Under the pieces are notes generated by a model, which was given only the letters and a program-made list of their open reading frames with translations, ran no database searches and was not told where the DNA came from. This document shows positions 2,047 to 63,159 of a DNA stretch of 64,000 bases, piece after piece. Source of the stretch: Weissella thailandensis (GTDB taxonomy: Bacteria; Bacillota; Bacilli; Lactobacillales; Lactobacillaceae). Both the position numbers and the translations under genes were made by a program. The stretch is taken from NCBI RefSeq assembly GCF_005405465.1, contig NZ_BJEC01000003.1:62001-126000 (forward strand), in the 5' to 3' direction. The stretch's first letter is position 1. Every line of letters begins with the position of its first letter.

Positions 2047-3354
2047 ATGTTTGAGCGTTACTTCAAGCTATCTGAATCAGGAACGTCTGTTAAAACTGAG
2101 CTATTAGCTGGTTTAACAACTTTCCTATCAATGGCTTATATTTTATTCGTTAACCCTTCAGTACTTGGTGCAACAGGTATGGACAAAAATGCTGTCTTTG
2201 TTGCCACAGGTCTAATTGGTGCCATCGCAACCATCTTTATGGGACTTGTTGCTAAGTATCCATTTGCGATTGCTCCCGGACTAGGTATCAATGCTTTCTT
2301 CGCTTACAGTGTTGTTATTGGTATGGGAATTAAGTGGCAAACTGCTTTGGCAGGAGTCTTTGTTGCCGGTGTGATTTTCTGGCTTTTGACGGTTTTCAAA
2401 ATTCGTGAAACCATCATTAATGCCATTCCGGCTGACTTAAAAGCAGCTATTGCTGGTGGTATTGGATTCTTCATTGCGATGATCGGATTAGTTGACGGTG
2501 GCTTGATTGCTGCTGACAAATCAACCATTATTGGTTGGGGTGATTGGAGTGATCCTAAGGTCATGCTAACAATTGTCGGTGTGTTAATTTCCTTCGCGCT
2601 ATATGCACGTAAGGTGCCAGGAGCTATCTTTATCGGAATGGTTGCAACTTCAATTATCGGTTTGGTGACAGGACTAATTCCAATGCCTTCATCAATCGTT
2701 TCAGGTGTTCCAAGTTTGGCACCAACTTTTGGTCAAGCTATTTTCGGTTTGCAGGATGTGTTTACCTGGCAGATGATACCGGTTATCCTGACGTTTTTGC
2801 TAGTTGCATTCTTTGATACTGCTGGTTCGCTAATCGGAATTGCACGTTCTGGTGGATACTTGGTCAACAATGAATTACCACGTGCCGGAAAAGCATTGAT
2901 GGCTGATGCTATTGGTATGCTGGGTGGTTCACTATTGGGAACATCACCAACAACGGCCTATGTTGAATCATCAACGGGTATTGCTGTTGGTGGTCGTACC
3001 GGATTAACATCACTATTTACTGGACTATTCTTGCTATTGTCATTGTTCTTCTCACCATTGCTAGTTGTTGTGACATCTAATGTGACAGCATCAGCATTGA
3101 TTATCGTTGGTGTTTTGATGGCAAGTAATTTGTCCGAAGTTGATTGGAAAGATTTCCCAATTGCTGCGGCATCATTCTTAACAGTTTTGGGGATGCCATT
3201 GTCATACTCAATTTCTGATGGTATCGCATTAGGATTTATCGTTTATCCATTGTTGATGCTAGTTACAGGACGTGGTAAGAAAGTCCACCCAATTATGTAC
3301 GCCTTGGGCATAACGTTTATCATATTCGTTATTATCTTACAGACAAATGGTTAA
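2047..3354 (+). CDS. pbuG: adenine/guanine/hypoxanthine permease, AzgA (PbuG/PbuO) family
   Basis: A 435-residue membrane protein starting MFERYFKLSESGTSVKTE, the usual N-terminus of AzgA-type purine permeases. It has about 12 helices and family blocks such as GLTTFLSMAYILFVNP (residues 19-34), AIAPGLGINAFFAY, and FFDTAGSLIG (about residues 257-266). Length is normal for the family. An in-frame TTG start exists at 2002, but the ATG at 2047 has the AAGGGG ribosome site and fits homologues. The gene is monocistronic, with PurBox-like sites upstream and a terminator downstream. It imports purine bases with protons; the exact base preference cannot be told. It complements guaD and the second, broken purine permease at 43.2-44.5 kb. 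Confidence 0.88.
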   Translation: MFERYFKLSESGTSVKTELLAGLTTFLSMAYILFVNPSVLGATGMDKNAVFVATGLIGAIATIFMGLVAKYPFAIAPGLGINAFFAYSVVIGMGIKWQTALAGVFVAGVIFWLLTVFKIRETIINAIPADLKAAIAGGIGFFIAMIGLVDGGLIAADKSTIIGWGDWSDPKVMLTIVGVLISFALYARKVPGAIFIGMVATSIIGLVTGLIPMPSSIVSGVPSLAPTFGQAIFGLQDVFTWQMIPVILTFLLVAFFDTAGSLIGIARSGGYLVNNELPRAGKALMADAIGMLGGSLLGTSPTTAYVESSTGIAVGGRTGLTSLFTGLFLLLSLFFSPLLVVVTSNVTASALIIVGVLMASNLSEVDWKDFPIAAASFLTVLGMPLSYSISDGIALGFIVYPLLMLVTGRGKKVHPIMYALGITFIIFVIILQTNG

Positions 3355-15425: not shown

Positions 15426-16031
15426 ATGCCTAAAAAATTAGATGAACCAGATATTAAAGCCCTAGCGAAAAAGCCTATATTTGAAAAGGTAGCAGATGGT
15501 GATTGGTACCAATATGGTAAAGAACCACAATTACAAGCAATTGTTAAGTCGAGTACGCAAGCGATTCAGAAGCTGAATAAAATTGCAGTGGACGATTTTG
15601 ACGAGGCATTAAAACAGTTGCATGAATTGGCCCCTCATATGGCTGATGACGTGGAAGTGTATTTCCCAATTACTAACATTGAGTATCCCAATAACTTGTT
15701 TATTGATGAAGGAACATTTATCAATTTAAATTTCACTATTTTGAGTGCTGGTAAAATTACAATTGGTAAAAATTGTTTCTTAGGTCCTAATACGCAGTTA
15801 TATACGCCTAACCATCATCCAAACAAAAAAGAAATGCGTCGTGAGGGATGGCAATATGATTTGCCAATTACCATCGGCGATGATTGTTGGTTTGGTGGTT
15901 CTGTGATTGTTTTGCCGGGTGTTGAGATTGGTGACAATGTCGTTGTTGGGGCAGGTAGTGTGGTTACCCACGATATACCAAGTAATACAGTTGTGGCAGG
16001 AAATCCTGCGCATATTATTCGTCACGTATAA
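15426..16031 (+). CDS. hexapeptide-repeat sugar O-acetyltransferase (Maa/LacA type)
   Basis: A 201-residue protein with a helical N-terminal region and a left-handed beta-helix from about residue 75. The C-terminal block GDNVVVGAGSVVTHDIPSNTVVAGNPA is the acetyl-CoA binding end of maltose/galactoside acetyltransferases; His in YTPNHHP (about residue 124) corresponds to the catalytic histidine. It transfers acetyl groups from acetyl-CoA to a sugar hydroxyl. It is convergent with a second, distinct member of the same family, so the two are not simple tandem duplicates. GGAGAAG precedes the ATG. The acceptor is unknown. Confidence 0.82.
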   Translation: MPKKLDEPDIKALAKKPIFEKVADGDWYQYGKEPQLQAIVKSSTQAIQKLNKIAVDDFDEALKQLHELAPHMADDVEVYFPITNIEYPNNLFIDEGTFINLNFTILSAGKITIGKNCFLGPNTQLYTPNHHPNKKEMRREGWQYDLPITIGDDCWFGGSVIVLPGVEIGDNVVVGAGSVVTHDIPSNTVVAGNPAHIIRHV

Positions 16032-16036
16032 ATAAA

Positions 16037-16092
16037 AAAGCTGAGAAGTATTGATAATCTGGTTAGAGCCAGTATCTACTTCTCAGTTTTTT
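16037..16092. terminator. bidirectional terminator
   Basis: AAGCTGAGAAGTA and TACTTCTCAGTTTTTTT pair around a loop of about 25 bases, between the two convergent acetyltransferase genes. The last bases touch the stop codon of the minus-strand gene. Confidence 0.82.
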
Positions 16093-16688
16093 TATATCAA
16101 ATCTTGACCAGTAAAACCGGTTTTGTCGGCTGGTGTGATTTCTCGTAATACATGACAAGGATTACCAACGGCGATAACATTTCTTGGAATATCATGTGTT
16201 ACGACACTACCAGCGCCAATGATGACATCATCTCCGATGGTTACACCAGGTAAAACGGTGACATTAGCGGCCAACCAGCAACGATTACCGATGGTGATTG
16301 GTTTTGCAATGCAACCGCCAATTTCACGTTCGCGTGCATCGAATGAATGATTACTTGTATAAAGGCCAACTTTCGGACCAAAAAGGACGCGATCTCCAAT
16401 TGTGACCTTAGCACCGTCTAAAATCACAGCATCATAGTTAGCGTAAAAATGGTCACCAACATGGATGTTGCGACCAAACTCGCAGCGAAAATTAGGGTTT
16501 AAGTCTGGTGCAACACCAGCGCTGCCAAATAAATGACGGATTAACTGTTCCTTATGCTCTTTGTCATTTTCAGCATTAATTTCATTAGTTAATACTGTTG
16601 AACGATCTCTAGCTGCCACTAAAATAGGGTCTAAGTCATTATAAGTTTTACCAGTAGCCATATTCGCGAATTTTTCATCTAAGTCCAT
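16092..16688 (-). CDS. maltose/galactoside O-acetyltransferase family protein
   Basis: A 198-residue enzyme. The N-terminal Mac domain (MATGKTYNDLDPILVAARD) is typical of maltose acetyltransferases, and the left-handed beta-helix follows. LYTSNHSFD holds the catalytic histidine, and GAGSVVTHDIPRNVIAVGNP is the CoA-binding end. The length matches Maa. A good AGGAGG-like site precedes the start at 16688. Its physiological role, as for other Maa proteins, is probably detoxifying or modifying excess sugars. It is a single gene. Confidence 0.85.
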   Translation of the reverse strand: MDLDEKFANMATGKTYNDLDPILVAARDRSTVLTNEINAENDKEHKEQLIRHLFGSAGVAPDLNPNFRCEFGRNIHVGDHFYANYDAVILDGAKVTIGDRVLFGPKVGLYTSNHSFDAREREIGGCIAKPITIGNRCWLAANVTVLPGVTIGDDVIIGAGSVVTHDIPRNVIAVGNPCHVLREITPADKTGFTGQDLI

Positions 16689-16768
16689 GTGTTCCTCCTA
16701 AAATCATTACTATCAGGATATCATAAAAATTCAGAGCCCAGGATATTTAGAAACGATGCTTAAAAAGG

Positions 16769-16798
16769 TTGACAGTTCTCGCGACATTAGAGTATGGT
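16769..16798 (+). promoter_or_regulatory. promoter of the attenuated aminotransferase operon
   Basis: TTGACA at 16769-16774 is a perfect -35 box. TATGGT at 16793-16798 lies 18 bp further as the -10 box. Transcription would start near 16805, giving a leader of about 310 bases before the aminotransferase. Confidence 0.6.
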
Positions 16799-16830
16799 TA
16801 GAATATCATTAAAGCCAGGAGCTAATATTC

Positions 16831-16893
16831 ATGAAATTACGCAATATATCACAATTGAATAATTGGAACTATAACTTTCGTTTCTTTATGTAG
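16831..16893 (+). CDS. aromatic-rich leader peptide (20 aa)
   Basis: ATG at 16831 has an AGGAG eight bases upstream (16817-16821) and opens a 20-codon frame ended by TAG at 16891. The second half reads W-N-Y-N-F-R-F-F at residues 12-19: all three aromatic amino acids, five aromatic codons out of eight. No other short frame nearby has such a ribosome site. It sits in the long leader RNA of an aminotransferase operon, upstream of mutually exclusive hairpins and a terminator. The layout is that of a ribosome-sensing attenuator that responds to Trp, Tyr or Phe charging. This function is inferred; expression of the peptide has not been shown. Confidence 0.7.
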   Translation: MKLRNISQLNNWNYNFRFFM

Positions 16894-16913
16894 TGTTTGC
16901 ATCTAGTAATTAG

Positions 16914-17067
16914 CAGGTGCAGGCACGTAACACATGTTTGTACCTGTGGGAAATGAAAGCTATTTGGCTTGAGTAAAAAGACCCTGCAGGTTTGAGAATA
17001 ATCTGTGAGAGGAAGAGTAGATAGGTATAGACCCTCTGGATTGTTTTCAATCGAGAGGGTCTTTTTT
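16914..17067 (+). promoter_or_regulatory. transcription attenuator with alternative hairpins and terminator
   Basis: Segment 1 (16914-16925) pairs with segment 2 (16935-16946) in a 12-bp stem with G-U pairs. Segment 2 extended (16942-16950) can instead pair with segment 3 (16983-16991), nine pairs. Segment 3 also contains AAAAAGACCCT (16975-16985), complementary to AGGGTCTTTTT at 17056-17066, the 3' arm of the terminator. The terminator itself is AGACCCTCT..ATTG / CAAT..AGAGGGTCT plus T6 (17029-17067). AGAGG (17009-17013) can also trap CCTCT (17033-17037) of its 5' arm. No T-box core (TGGNACCGCG) is present. Confidence 0.65.
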
Positions 17068-17116
17068 CATAGAAATGATGTTGCCAGTTTTTAATAATCA
17101 AAGGAGTAAGTCAGCT

Positions 17117-18298
17117 ATGGAAATGACAAAATACTTAAATACGCAGCTAGCAGGTGTTAAAGCTTCAGATATTTTAGCTTTCGCCAATTTTGCTTCAGGA
17201 ATTCCAAATATTGTGAATTTTACCGTGGGCGAACCTGATTTCAATACACCAGAACATGTGCAACAAGCCGCTATTCGTAGTATTCAAGAGAATCACTCGC
17301 ATTATGCACCATCAAATGGGACACAAGAATTACGGCAAAATGTTAGTGATTATTTAGCTGATAAGTACGATCAACATTACACGCCGGAAGAAGTTATTGT
17401 GACTGAAGGTGCCACTGAAGCTATCTATACAGCAATTGTATCTGTACTTAATCCTGGAGATAAGGTCATTATTCCAACACCAACATTTCCATTGTACATT
17501 GCTGATGTGACAGTGGCTGGTGGCCAACCAATCTTAGTTGATACGTCTGCAACAGATTTTAAGTTAACACCAGAATTATTGGCGCAGACCATTGACCGCG
17601 AAGGGCCATCAGTAAAAATGTTGGTACTAAACTATCCAGGTAATCCGACTGGTGTGACTTATTCGCAAGCAGAATTGGATGCCTTGGGGGATGTACTAAG
17701 GGACAAACCAATTTTTGCCTTGTGTGATGAGATATACAGTGAATTAAATTATGACCATCCGCATGCTTCATTAACAAAATCGCTACGTGAACAAACAATT
17801 CCAATTTCCGGTGTATCAAAATCACATGCCATGACGGGTTGGCGGATTGGTTTGCTTTGTGCACCACAGAATTTGGTCAATGAATTGAGTAAAATTCATC
17901 AATTCACTATTACTAGCACAGCAACGGTTGCCCAAGATGCGGCGGCTGAAGCTTTAGGAAATGGTCAAGATGATGCCTTACCGATGAAAGCGGAGTACCA
18001 GAAAAGACGTGATTATATTTTAGATACATTAAATGAACTAGGTTTTCAAACAGCTAAACCTAGTGGGGCATTTTACATCTACACGAAAATTGCACCTGAT
18101 TTGGAGCAGGATGATGTGAAGTTTGCTTATGATTTGGCTAAAAGTGGACACGTTGCTGCGGTCCCTGGTTCATATTTTGGACCAGGAGGGGATCACTACC
18201 TACGTTTAAGTTATGCAACGAGTATGGCCGAAATCAAACGAGGTATGAGCCAATTACAGCAATATGTGGCTGATCAACGAGTTTCACAAACAGTTTAA
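17117..18298 (+). CDS. PLP-dependent aminotransferase, probably aromatic
   Basis: A 393-residue class I aminotransferase that moves an amino group between an amino acid and 2-oxoglutarate. Blocks seen: NFTVGEPDFNTPEHV (about residues 34-48), NYPGNPTGVTYS (about 173-184), DEIYSELNY (about 203-211), the PLP-lysine segment SGVSKSHAMTGWRIGL (K near 237) and LRLSYATSM at the C-terminus. ATG 17117 has AAGGAG ten bases upstream, just after the attenuator terminator. It is followed after 27 bp by a D-2-hydroxyacid dehydrogenase. An aromatic substrate is inferred from the leader peptide; sequence alone would allow several. It corresponds to AraT/PatA-type LAB enzymes. Confidence 0.82.
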   Translation: MEMTKYLNTQLAGVKASDILAFANFASGIPNIVNFTVGEPDFNTPEHVQQAAIRSIQENHSHYAPSNGTQELRQNVSDYLADKYDQHYTPEEVIVTEGATEAIYTAIVSVLNPGDKVIIPTPTFPLYIADVTVAGGQPILVDTSATDFKLTPELLAQTIDREGPSVKMLVLNYPGNPTGVTYSQAELDALGDVLRDKPIFALCDEIYSELNYDHPHASLTKSLREQTIPISGVSKSHAMTGWRIGLLCAPQNLVNELSKIHQFTITSTATVAQDAAAEALGNGQDDALPMKAEYQKRRDYILDTLNELGFQTAKPSGAFYIYTKIAPDLEQDDVKFAYDLAKSGHVAAVPGSYFGPGGDHYLRLSYATSMAEIKRGMSQLQQYVADQRVSQTV

Positions 18299-18325
18299 GA
18301 AAGTATGAAAGCGGGGAATTTAAAA

Positions 18326-19315
18326 ATGAAGATTTTGTTATTGAGCGTTCGAACAGATGAGCGTGCAGCGATTGAAAAGTGGGGCGACCGTCATCCAGAT
18401 GTAGATTTAACGACCGCAGAATGGGAGTTACACTCAGATACGGTTGATCAAGTTGCAGGTTATGATGGTTTGGTGATTCAGCAACGTAGTCAAATCGAAC
18501 CAGATGTGTACCCGCGTTTACATGAATTGGGCATTAAGCAAATTACCACACGGACAGCGGGTTACGATGTGATTGATTTGCAAGCAGCTGCCGATAACGA
18601 CATAGTTATCAGTAATGTACCGGCTTATTCACCTCGGTCAGTGGCTGAATTAGCCTTAACACATACATTACGTTTAATTAGAAAGCAGGAATTAGTTGAT
18701 CAACGTGTTCGTGAACAAGATTTTCGTTGGACTGGGTTACAAGGAAGTGAAATTCATTCACTAACAATAGGTATTATTGGTGCCGGTCGAATTGGTGGAA
18801 CATCAGCACGACTCTTTCATGCTTTAAATGCCAAAGTCATCGCTTATGATATTAAACCTAACCATGAGTTAGATGATGTGCTAACTTTCTTGCCTTTTGA
18901 AGAGGTGCTACAACAAGCTGATGTTATTTGTTTGCATGTTGATTTAAACGAAACTTCAAAGGCGTTGATTGATGCAAAAGCCCTAGAATTGATGAAACCA
19001 ACAGCATACCTAGTTAATGAATGTCGTGGACCAGTAGTGGATACTACTGCTTTGTTGGCTGCTTTGAAAGAAAAGCGATTAGCTGGGGCAGCGTTAGATA
19101 CAATGGTTGGCGAAGAGACATTCTTTAACTTCGATTTACGAGGCCAAGAATTGCCAAATCAGGATTTGATTGCGTTACGTGAATACAATAATGTGATTAT
19201 TACACCACACGTTGGTTTCTATACTAATATTGCCGTGCAAAACATGGTTGATATTAGTCTGGATGACACGTTAGCAATTATTACTGGCGAAACCAGCGAA
19301 CATACAGTTGGATAA
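18326..19315 (+). CDS. D-2-hydroxyacid dehydrogenase (D-hydroxyisocaproate / phenyllactate type)
   Basis: A 329-residue NAD-dependent dehydrogenase. Rossmann motif GIIGAGRIGGTSARLF at about residues 149-164; catalytic R234 (NECRGP), E263 (VGEE) and H295 (TPHVGFYT). ATG 18326 is preceded by GGGGA; an upstream ATG (18305) is less well placed. It pairs with the aminotransferase in front, as the enzyme at 3442 does with its own partner. Together they would turn an amino acid into its D-2-hydroxy acid and reoxidise NADH. If the aromatic assignment is right, products would be phenyllactate, hydroxyphenyllactate or indolelactate, known antifungal LAB metabolites. Confidence 0.83.
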   Translation: MKILLLSVRTDERAAIEKWGDRHPDVDLTTAEWELHSDTVDQVAGYDGLVIQQRSQIEPDVYPRLHELGIKQITTRTAGYDVIDLQAAADNDIVISNVPAYSPRSVAELALTHTLRLIRKQELVDQRVREQDFRWTGLQGSEIHSLTIGIIGAGRIGGTSARLFHALNAKVIAYDIKPNHELDDVLTFLPFEEVLQQADVICLHVDLNETSKALIDAKALELMKPTAYLVNECRGPVVDTTALLAALKEKRLAGAALDTMVGEETFFNFDLRGQELPNQDLIALREYNNVIITPHVGFYTNIAVQNMVDISLDDTLAIITGETSEHTVG

Positions 19316-45320: not shown

Positions 45321-45619
45321 TTTGTGTACCTCCTTTGTATATTATTAATTTTAACAAAGGCGGCAATATAATGTTACTAATATGTATCCAAAAAATGTCA
45401 AAATAATGACATCACACGCCAAAAAAGACCATTAAAACAAACTTAAAGGCATGTTTATTAGAATTTAGACTTTATATCAGACAAAGCTTTAGAAGATATG
45501 ATTGTTGGAGTCAATGATTGTTGAAACAGTTATTAAATGAGAAAAATGGATTTTTATTATCTCTTGCAAATTGTATATCACAGTGTTAAACTCGTTAATA
45601 ATTAAAATTACATTAAAAA

Positions 45620-45857
45620 TCTGATGAGAAGAGTAGCCGCTATGTATCTTTAACAGAAAGCCTTGTAGATGAGATTAGGTATTGAGAACAGCAGTGAAGA
45701 TGAGCTCTGATAATTTTCTTTTTTGTTCACGCAAAGGGAACGGTTGAATGCGTTATGATTCCAGTGAGGCACTATTTTCCGCGGAATAGTGTGAATAGGG
45801 ATGGTAACGCGAATATTCGGCCCAAAGGTAAGCAATTGCCTTTGGGCCGATTTTTTT
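45620..45857 (+). ncRNA. T-box leader, probably methionine specific
   Basis: The T-box core reads AGGGATGGTAACGCG (45797-45811), one base off the TGGNACCGCG consensus; TGGT fits a tRNA ending ACCA. It is followed by terminator TTCGGCCCAAAGG / CCTTTGGGCCGA plus T7 (45816-45857). Stem I appears to run from AGAG (45630-45633) to CTCT (45705-45708), with ATG at 45700-45702 in the specifier position, before GA. Uncharged tRNA-Met would favour the antiterminator. The downstream gene is a methionine synthase-like methyltransferase, which agrees. Confidence 0.82.
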
Positions 45858-61605: not shown

Positions 61606-63159
61606 TTATTCCCACTCAACAGTTGCAGGTGGCTTAGCTGTAATATCATAGACTACGCGGTTAACGTGGTCTGTTTCATTGACAATGCGACGAGAAATTT
61701 CTTCCAATACGTCCCATGGCAACTTAGCAAAGTCAGCTGTCATACCATCAACTGAAGTGATAGCACGAATAGCAATCGTGTGGTCATAAGTACGACCGTC
61801 ACCCATGACACCAACTGAACGAACACCTGGCAAAACAGTGAAGTATTGCCAAACTTCGCTGTCCAAACCTTGCTTAGCGATTTCATCACGTAAGATGGCA
61901 TCAGATTCACGGACGATTTCTAGCTTATCCTCTGTGACTTCACCAAGTACACGGATTCCAAGGCCTGGTCCAGGGAATGGTTGACGCCAAACAAGTTCAT
62001 GTGGCATACCAAGCTTTTCACCAAGTAGACGAACTTCATCTTTAAACAATTTGTTCAAAGGCTCGATCAATTGGAATTGAATGTCTTCTGGTAGTCCACC
62101 AACATTGTGATGAGATTTGATCGTTTGTGCTGTATCAGTACCAGACTCAATAACGTCAGTATATAACGTACCTTGTGCCAAGAAGTCGATACCATCTAAC
62201 TTAACAGCTTCTTCGTCAAAGACACGAATAAATTCGTTACCAATGATTTTGCGCTTTTGTTCAGGGTCAGTAACACCAGCTAGCTTATTCAAGAAACGTT
62301 CTTGCGCGTCAACTTTGATGATGTTTAGACCAAACTTGCCACCAAGGGCGTCCATCACTTCATCGGCTTCATTCTTACGTAGTAAACCATGGTCTACGAA
62401 AATTGATGTTAATTGATTACCGATGGCTTTGTGTAGCAAAACACCAACGACAGATGAGTCAACACCACCTGAAAGACCTAGTAGGACGCGTTTGTCACCG
62501 ACTGTTTCGCGAATTTTAGCAATTTGCTCGTCAATGAAGTCATCCATTGACCAGTCACGATTTGCGTGAACAGCATGATCGATAAAGTTTTCCAGAATCT
62601 TCATACCATAAACGGTGTGGCGAACTTCCGCGTGGAATTGAACACCGTATAGTTGGCGTTCAGGGTTTTCCATCGCAGCAATTGGTGTGCTATCAGAAGT
62701 GGCGACGGCAGTGAAACCATCGGGTACTGCGCTAACAGAATCACCGTGTGACATCAAAACAGTTTGTTCTGCTGGTGTTTCGGCAAATAGTGTTGAGTGC
62801 TCGTCAGTAACCTTCAAAACGGTTTCGCCATATTCGGATGTGCCACTTGCGGGTTGCACTTTACCACCAGGCAACATGTGTGCCATTAGTTGCATACCAT
62901 AGCAAACACCTAAAATAGGGATGTTAAGATTGAAAATTTCTGGATCGATAGAAAATGCACCGTCAGCATAAACGGAATTAGGACCACCCGAGAAAATTAG
63001 GCCTTTGGGTTTTAGTTCTTTAATTTCAGCTGCGGTAATAGAGTGTGGCTTTAATTCAGAATATACCCCCAATTCACGAATACGTCGTGAGATCAGTTGG
63101 TTATATTGAGAACCAAAGTCCAAAACAAGAATACTATCGTGTGTATCTGTGTTGGCCAT
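61606..63159 (-). CDS. guaA: GMP synthase (glutamine-hydrolysing)
   Basis: A 517-residue two-domain enzyme that aminates XMP to GMP. Residues 1-195 form the glutaminase domain with [10 protein letters not shown] (catalytic cysteine) and GVQFHAEV (histidine, and glutamate two residues later). [12 protein letters not shown] is the ATP pyrophosphatase loop. The end [17 protein letters not shown] is canonical. ATG 63159, preceded by GGGGGAT, is preferred to 63171. A PurBox lies upstream, and in context it completes guanine to XMP to GMP traffic. Confidence 0.96.

Follow-up and report, generated by a model that had tools for sequence, protein, structure and literature searches.

What decides whether an aminotransferase and hydroxyacid dehydrogenase gene pair is transcribed in Weissella thailandensis? 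The pair lies in the 64,000-nt stretch of contig NZ_BJEC01000003.1 analysed here (positions 62,001 to 126,000; hereafter the window, to which all coordinates refer). It is preceded by a leader with a short open reading frame (ORF) rich in aromatic codons. Amino-acid control in the Lactobacillales is usually credited to T-boxes. We consider it likely that this leader, locus L040 of our collection, is a translation-coupled transcription attenuator that would use its 20 codons to sense how far the tRNAs for Trp, Tyr and Phe are charged, and that it belongs to an order-wide family with pathway-adapted control codons. By sequence comparison, the element is a conserved control-codon ORF with a nearly fixed stop codon at segment 1 of a seven-segment chain that ends in a terminator. 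Since the ORF, the aromatic codons and the helices recur in relatives and across the order, the element is more than a product of chance.

The leader of the Weissella locus

The leader and the genes that follow it comprise these features.

16769..16798, + strand: probable promoter, TTGACA and TATGGT separated by 18 nt (10 of 12 matches)
16817..16821, + strand: predicted Shine-Dalgarno sequence AGGAG of the leader ORF, 9 nt upstream of it
16831..16893, + strand: leader ORF MKLRNISQLNNWNYNFRFFM, 20 codons, stop codon UAG, control codons W12, Y14, F16, F18 and F19
16875..16884, + strand: segment 0 (last control codons), pairs with segment 0b as helix P0
16893..16904, + strand: segment 1, begins at the final G of the stop codon, pairs with segment 2
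16915..16926, + strand: segment 2, partner of 1 or 3
16927..16949, + strand: segment 3 (resembles segment 1), partner of 2 or 4
16950..16959, + strand: segment 0b, would pair with segment 0 if the end of the ORF is free of ribosomes
16979..16993, + strand: segment 4, partner of 3 or 5 (or 7)
16999..17014, + strand: segment 5, partner of 4 or 6
17029..17043, + strand: segment 6, 5' arm of the terminator, partner of 5 or 7
17048..17067, + strand: segment 7, 3' arm of the terminator (to 17062) and U run
17117..18298, + strand: aminotransferase (PRK07309-like, pyridoxal-phosphate-dependent), first gene after the leader, 501 bits (curated cut-off of 576 not reached)
18305..19315, + strand: D-2-hydroxyacid dehydrogenase (D-lactate dehydrogenase family), alternative in-frame ATG at 18326, best model below its cut-off

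A sequence-only reading of this DNA had described the 20-codon ORF with its AGGAG and its W, Y, F, F and F, and this description is exact. The intrinsic terminator that it placed directly before the aminotransferase is likewise confirmed (17029-17067), as a stem at 17029-17062 (-23.5 kcal/mol) with a U run to 17067. In folding, the leader RNA (16805-17075) beats all 200 of its dinucleotide shuffles (z -4.87). The promoter call in the window is weak alone, with 3 promoter-like sites on both strands of 601 bases against 2.3 expected; such sites are found upstream of 123 of the 146 dereplicated elements of the family, where mononucleotide shuffles give 7.6. A Shine-Dalgarno-like motif is present in 123 of 134 aromatic-class leaders. 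The motif QLN (CAA TTG AAT, leader codons 8-10, 16852-16860) has a similar place in many leaders across classes, and neither helices nor codons explain it. The dehydrogenase starts 6 nt past the aminotransferase stop. Upstream of the leader promoter are two convergent genes resembling maltose/galactoside O-acetyltransferases (15426-16031, + strand; 16092-16688, - strand).

A chain of mutually exclusive helices

The pairings were tested against 5000 between-locus permutations in 63 dereplicated Lactobacillaceae loci (60-63 per pair). For 0:0b, 1:2, 2:3, 3:4, 4:5, 5:6 and 6:7 the within-locus pairing is stronger, with 0 of 5000 re-pairings as good. For 1:4, 2:5, 3:6, 2:4, 3:5 and 5:7 it is not stronger than re-paired, and for 1:3 it is slightly stronger, with 3 of 5000 re-pairings as good. 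The pair 4:7 also passes, which is expected because segments 4 and 6 are near copies. The results for 0:0b, 1:2 and 4:5 lean on the covariance model, since the alignment was fitted to those helices; 2:3, 3:4, 5:6 and 6:7 are not in that model, hence their support is independent of it. When the aminotransferase class is taken alone, 0:0b, 3:4, 4:5, 5:6, 6:7 and 4:7 pass. In the FSFFFR class, 3:4, 4:5 and 6:7 stand at 0 of 5000, 4:7 at 3, 5:6 at 8 and 2:3 at 29.

Neighbouring helices exclude each other, with median overlaps of 10, 5, 7, 9 and 10 nt in segments 2-6. Where a terminator was called, it lies between leader and gene. By inspection, two permease loci (L139 and L151) seemingly have five segments of the same parity, with 4:5 as the terminator; L151 has a second terminator behind. 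Thus the marks of an amino-acid leader-peptide attenuator are present, namely a short ORF rich in control codons, exclusive helices, a terminator and a match between codons and pathway, with translation of the ORF predicted.

The alternative pairings first proposed for the window are real, though their labels were one step off: the pairing called 1:2 (16914-16925 with 16935-16946) is 2:3, and that called 2:3 is 3:4. A third pairing, between a segment 3 and the terminator, is in fact 4:7 and is backed by the re-pairing test. The true segment 1 (16893-16904, pairing with 16915-16926) had been overlooked. Because it abuts the stop codon, the worry that a stalled ribosome would stop short of segment 1 dissolves.

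Leader codons and downstream genes

An indication of codon sensing comes from the genes behind the leaders. Gene classes were set by BLAST against a single reference each; the references bear Pfam or NCBIfam names, apart from that for a second ABC binding protein, which was named by inspection; the EIIC-like protein is unnamed by NCBIfam and named by Pfam. The 146 elements are distributed as follows: TrpX-like ABC transporter 63, aminotransferase 31, aroE 17, MFS 6, livJ 5, transketolase 4, 2-hydroxyacid dehydrogenase 3, APC permease 3, ilvB 3 (one being the doubtful L257), PTS_EIIC_2 2, ilvA 2, DAHP synthase 2, another ABC binding protein 2, aroC (chorismate synthase) 1, ilvE 1 and unassigned 1 (L221).

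For the codon test, leaders were picked blind to their residues, and F/Y/W were compared with I/L/V in the last 8 residues of 144 elements, leaving aside L257, whose leader is doubtful, and L221, which has no gene in the fetched piece. F/Y/W outnumber I/L/V in 134 of 134 leaders before the non-branched-chain (aromatic-type or linked) classes, where the match is not independent for the permease, MFS and EIIC-like classes because these were counted as aromatic-type by their leaders. Before the branched-chain genes (ilvA, ilvB, ilvE and livJ), I/L/V prevail in 10 of 10. The Fisher p value is 1.3e-15, though it is computed on related sequences, and family f5 holds all 10 branched-chain leaders. 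Examples are the endings NLLISVIR before acetolactate synthase (L235), NIISIIR before threonine dehydratase (L238) and AIIISIIIR before a branched-chain binding protein (L271), each directly followed by the stop codon. One genome (G584) has both the aromatic and the branched-chain version. Leaders of the same architecture thus stand before branched-chain genes with swapped codons, and codon sensing is therefore indicated.

The reading frame also carries a signal. Since an earlier choice of leaders had favoured aromatic residues, the frame test was redone with a neutral choice, which prefers stop positions seen before. In the last 12 codons, F/Y/W make up 44.5% in frame against 10.5% and 13.4% in the other frames. 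For the 10 branched-chain leaders the contrast is weak, since I/L/V make up 47.5% in frame, 39.1% in one other frame and 12.7% in the remaining one. Under the earlier choice, which weighted aromatic residues and also underlies the footprint counts given below, 57 of 63 loci have UAG as the stop codon, and in 48 of 63 the stop codon begins 2 nt before segment 1.

Among aromatic-type leaders, those with a Trp codon within the final 12 residues number 24 of 31 for aminotransferase, 4 of 4 for transketolase, 2 of 6 for MFS and 0 of 17 for aroE. None of the 63 leaders of TrpX-like transporters contains Trp anywhere (for example L061 and L223), which suggests, from the codons, Phe/Tyr uptake for many of these transporters. 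Solved relatives of two f4 TrpX-like transporters are 6hni, 3lft and 3lkv; 6hni presumably binds tyrosine and 3lft tryptophan, and since these ligands differ, not all members need be Phe/Tyr transporters. TrpX itself is named a "tryptophan ABC transporter" by NCBIfam, and the Trp-free leaders of its relatives hold Phe/Tyr codons. One MFS gene (L144, about 834-2309 of its locus, leader MTQLLTTNAYYFGFYYFR) encodes a fusion protein, an MFS transporter with a chorismate mutase domain (CM_2 in Pfam) at its C-terminus, which suggests an aromatic amino-acid or precursor transporter. The MFS class was counted as aromatic-type because of its aromatic leaders and this domain. Transketolase genes stand behind YYYYWFF-type leaders in L054, L073, L090 and L112. 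Transketolase yields erythrose-4-phosphate, an aromatic precursor.

Close relatives and spread across the order

The aminotransferase of the nearest named locus, in W. fangxianensis, is 96% identical to that of the window. A DNA similarity search of 28 genomes of the genus found the leader in 5, its own among them; a sixth match (L007) covers 31 bases only and was rejected as chance. The leader is also present in named Ligilactobacillus, Bombilactobacillus and Liquorilactobacillus loci. The leader peptides of relatives differ while the plan is kept (MKNHRISQVNSWRYYFRFFM, MKLAKQHSNNWYYNFYFFR, MVINNLQHLNNSYLYFRFFR, MMQARHNRQLNTWHYYFRFFS and MSIKVMPVKLNKFYYFWFFQGCL). A single inserted base ahead of the stop gives L004, from one genome of the genus, the ending FRFY, which is aromatic still. 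The comparison of homologous loci that had been proposed as a check thus finds frame and aromatic codons kept alongside the hairpins, rather than hairpins kept with the frame lost. The aminotransferase and dehydrogenase pair recurs in the five nearest named relatives (L008-L012, with L010 cut by a contig end). In the wider set, 19 of 31 aminotransferase loci showed the dehydrogenase as the next gene, and 11 of the other 12 had only about 235-270 nt left. In Companilactobacillus, no such leader was seen in a GTGTTTG motif scan of the loci or, by eye, upstream of L013, L014, L016, L017 and L021. A plasmid search by DNA similarity gave no match to the window locus, and a plasmid protein search gave 30 records, every one below 60% identity.

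A covariance model (R1; 9 sequences, 31 pairs) matches 147 of 397 genomes of the Lactobacillaceae, which we take in GTDB's sense, at E<=1 and in 24 of 40 genera, the weakest matches being chance. The rebuilt model (R2; 102 aligned matches, of which two, in L045 and L076, are spurious second matches), run across the order at E<=0.05 with strict filters, finds the family in 251 of 395 genomes and 64 of 80 genera. Of 398 Bacilli genomes, 36 have matches at E<=0.01; 30 of these belong to the order, and the other 6 are among the roughly 359 that do not. The five loci inspected from genomes outside the order (L291, L302, L303, L305 and L310) all have aromatic leaders. Families f3 and f4 appear to be Enterococcaceae and Streptococcus. 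A second match in the Weissella genome itself (L257, E 0.0019) is without a convincing leader. From 315 loci (L001-L315), 240 were taken; 12 from the first harvest (L149, L154-L162, L164 and L165) were dropped as chance by weak scores and by eye, and the remaining 228, repeat fetches included, gave the 146 dereplicated elements. Attenuators of this kind had been regarded as rare cases, and within the Lactobacillales they are not rare.

For the order as a whole, we lean, with some reserve, towards one ancestral, reprogrammable attenuator chassis. It would be a domino of seven segments (five in some permease loci) whose parity is the reverse of that of trp and in which the control codons themselves build a lock helix. 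Copies of it would have arisen within genomes, with the control codons changed from Phe/Tyr/Trp to Ile/Leu/Val, and it would unite parts of an sRNA family and of candidate riboswitches.

A proposed mechanism

Since the chain has an odd number of segments, a free segment 1 would lead to read-through and a hidden segment 1 to the terminator. When aromatic amino acids are plentiful, the ribosome at the stop codon would cover segment 1 and leave segment 2 exposed, so that 2:3, 4:5 and the terminator 6:7 would form and transcription would stop. In starvation, a ribosome stalled on the W, Y or F codons would cover segment 0 and leave segment 1 free, and 1:2, 3:4 and 5:6 would form with no terminator and hence read-through. 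With no ribosome, P0 would close around 1:2 and isolate segment 3, and 4:5 and the terminator would form; this is the least supported step. The earlier proposal of leader-peptide attenuation linked to aromatic amino acids remains the best reading. Related loci preserve the frame, the aromatic codons, the alternative helices and the terminator.

The geometry fits this scheme. If the ribosome is assumed to shield 13 nt past its A site, then at the stop codon it hides a median of 12 of the 12 nt of segment 1 and extends into segment 2 in 2 of 62 loci. On the first control codon it hides a median of 0 nt of segment 1. In 59 of 62 loci the distance from the last aromatic codon to segment 1 is 8 nt. 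By helix sums, the combination of 1:2, 3:4 and 5:6 is better than 2:3 and 4:5 in 55 of 59 loci when segment 1 is free, and with segment 1 masked 2:3 and 4:5 exceed 3:4 and 5:6 in 57 of 59.

Several observations weigh against the scheme. A ribosome stalled on the final aromatic codon would hide about half of segment 1. The helix sums, favourable or not, ignore loop costs; they put 4:5 at or above 5:6 in only 43 of 59 loci and prefer the P0 state, off without a ribosome, in only 25 of 59. Covariation is absent for 1:2 and 2:3 within the aminotransferase class alone and for 0:0b and 1:2 within the FSFFFR class. One aminotransferase leader (L146) keeps the ORF, P0, 4:5 and the terminator and has, by inspection, lost helix 1:2. 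Finally, equilibrium folding of the ribosome states did not confirm the ribosome step, in an ensemble that is blind to the order of transcription on which the domino model rests. In transcripts that do not yet have arm 7, a stall on the first control codon leaves arm 6 more sequestered than a ribosome at the stop does in 42 of 110 loci and less in 19, the rest lying within 0.1. With the full terminator, its mean probability is 0.80, 0.79 and 0.74 for stalls on the first, middle and last codon against 0.73 at the stop, which has the opposite sign. The window element itself fits by neither measure, with arm 6 sequestered at 0.47, 0.41 and 0.59 when stalled against 0.50 at the stop, and the terminator at 0.04, 0.43 and 0.18 against 0.01. 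This test left aside 20 loci, the 12 chance ones and L066, L073, L084, L104, L138 and L151-L153, mostly for an unclear terminator; the preceding terminator calling had skipped loci without a Shine-Dalgarno-like motif, except L041.

Alternative explanations

One earlier study, which we take to be that of Rosinski-Chupin and colleagues, is PMC4448216. It describes, in the part of its text considered here, two Streptococcus agalactiae leaders (gbs2033 and gbs1262) before paralogous ABC transporters, with short and long transcripts from one start site and similar sequences in Lactobacillales, and on RNA-seq and covariation it proposes riboswitches that sense aromatic compounds. Premature termination at these leaders was seen by RNA-seq, and the gbs2033 type also precedes the aroFBC-tyrA operon of Enterococcus faecium; the word "peptide" is absent from the main text (PMC4448216). 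Since the f4 matches that we inspected precede TrpX-like transporters, these leaders are probably members of the family of the window element, and as described they resemble other members in preceding ABC transporters and in their conservation across the Lactobacillales, the difference being that they were read as riboswitches. If they are members, their short and long transcripts speak for attenuation. A riboswitch that directly binds an aromatic amino acid or a precursor, with an incidental ORF, would suit the strong structure, the conserved core sequence and the lack of support for a ribosome switch from equilibrium folding. However, the leader codons track the pathway while the architecture is constant, the frame is kept with its Shine-Dalgarno sequence and start codon, the stop codon is tied to segment 1, and one ligand-binding core is not expected to serve both Phe/Tyr and Ile genes. 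We therefore regard a riboswitch as unlikely.

A nascent peptide with an aromatic C-terminus could also sense free amino acid in the ribosome tunnel, in the manner of TnaC. Residues other than the control residues are partly conserved (QLN upstream, S and R near the stop), a point in favour of such arrest. But the control residues vary in number and order and become Ile/Leu/Val in paralogues, and by inspection the S (AGC) codons lie within segment 0 and fit P0 pairing, which leaves QLN unexplained. Peptide arrest is thus a quite improbable account.

A stand-alone, trans-acting small RNA is suggested by Rfam, where family RF02863 (sRNA_2410) is typed "Gene; sRNA" and not as a leader. A 195-nt sRNA_2410 in E. 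faecium was detected by RNA-seq and by Northern blot, with two transcripts on the blot (PMC5593968, in the part of it consulted). The RF02863 gathering score of 61 is reached by 8 of 20 and 11 of 20 related loci outside the Lactobacillaceae (four and nine from f3; two of the 11 are the same place as a locus of the first set), by 0 of 20 Lactobacillaceae loci, and not by the window (17.4 bits, E 1.6). In ten non-Lactobacillaceae members, the match begins inside the leader ORF and ends before, inside or just past the terminator, where one is visible. A terminated leader would itself resemble a small RNA, the terminator, where called, lies between leader and gene, and 145 of the 146 elements precede a gene of the classes used (one, L257, doubtful), so a trans-acting role is very unlikely.

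A T-box or protein-dependent antitermination is hardly credible, for although T-boxes are common in this genome (26 matches, 12 above the cut-off), no Rfam family is matched at gathering in the window (93 bits for the T-box, RF00230), and the six sub-threshold hits at E<=5 in 16690-17120 include 0 T-boxes and one PyrR site, which scores 18.7 bits where the cut-off is 54. Elsewhere in the window, a T-box-like match under the cut-off (62.7 bits) lies at 45612-45826 (G000:C3:107612-107826). In L050 a T-box (123 bits, 2821-3059) lies downstream of an attenuator-led 2-hydroxyacid dehydrogenase, and both systems are found in one locus.

Comparison with known attenuators

The leader-peptide attenuator therefore remains our preferred reading, and it can be compared with systems that are better known. 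In the Proteobacteria, the amino-acid operons trp, phe, his, leu and ilv have leader-peptide attenuators (PMC9413887, as far as its text was consulted). The Weissella element resembles them in its control codons within a short ORF, its alternative helices, its terminator and its match to the pathway. It differs from the trp attenuator in having seven segments where trp has four, and in that helix 1:2 is predicted to go with read-through here and with termination in the trp model. In contrast to the proteobacterial attenuators, its stop codon abuts segment 1 and an extra helix, P0, is built from the control codons. The leucine-rich attenuator peptide of the Staphylococcus aureus ilv-leu operon, as described, is likewise a case of leader-peptide attenuation in the Bacillota, and differs in being confined to a single operon (PMC5794164, in part).

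Within the same order, the leu-phe_leader of Lactococcus (RF01743) is alike in what we take to be its function, leader-peptide attenuation. With a gathering score of 70 bits, RF01743 has no match in the Weissella genome and none above the cut-off in 395 Lactobacillales genomes, where there are 4 weak matches. By covariance model, it is distinct from the family of the window.

Implications

Leader-peptide attenuation is already known; what is new here is the seven-segment design with its predicted inverted parity, its spread across the order and the swapping of codons. In the open-licence literature, we found no description of this RNA family as leader-peptide attenuators, and the family is only partly, and differently, labelled in literature and databases, as an sRNA in Rfam and as candidate riboswitches. 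If our reading is true, the Rfam sRNA and perhaps two candidate riboswitches would be relabelled as attenuator leaders. The annotation of regulons in lactic acid bacteria would change, since aromatic and branched-chain genes would have a second control system in front of them, one programmed by codons. The leader codons alone would give functional hints on the genes downstream. In Weissella, the supply of Trp, Tyr and Phe would be tied to an aminotransferase and hydroxyacid dehydrogenase pathway that, judging from the protein families, probably makes aromatic 2-hydroxy acids.

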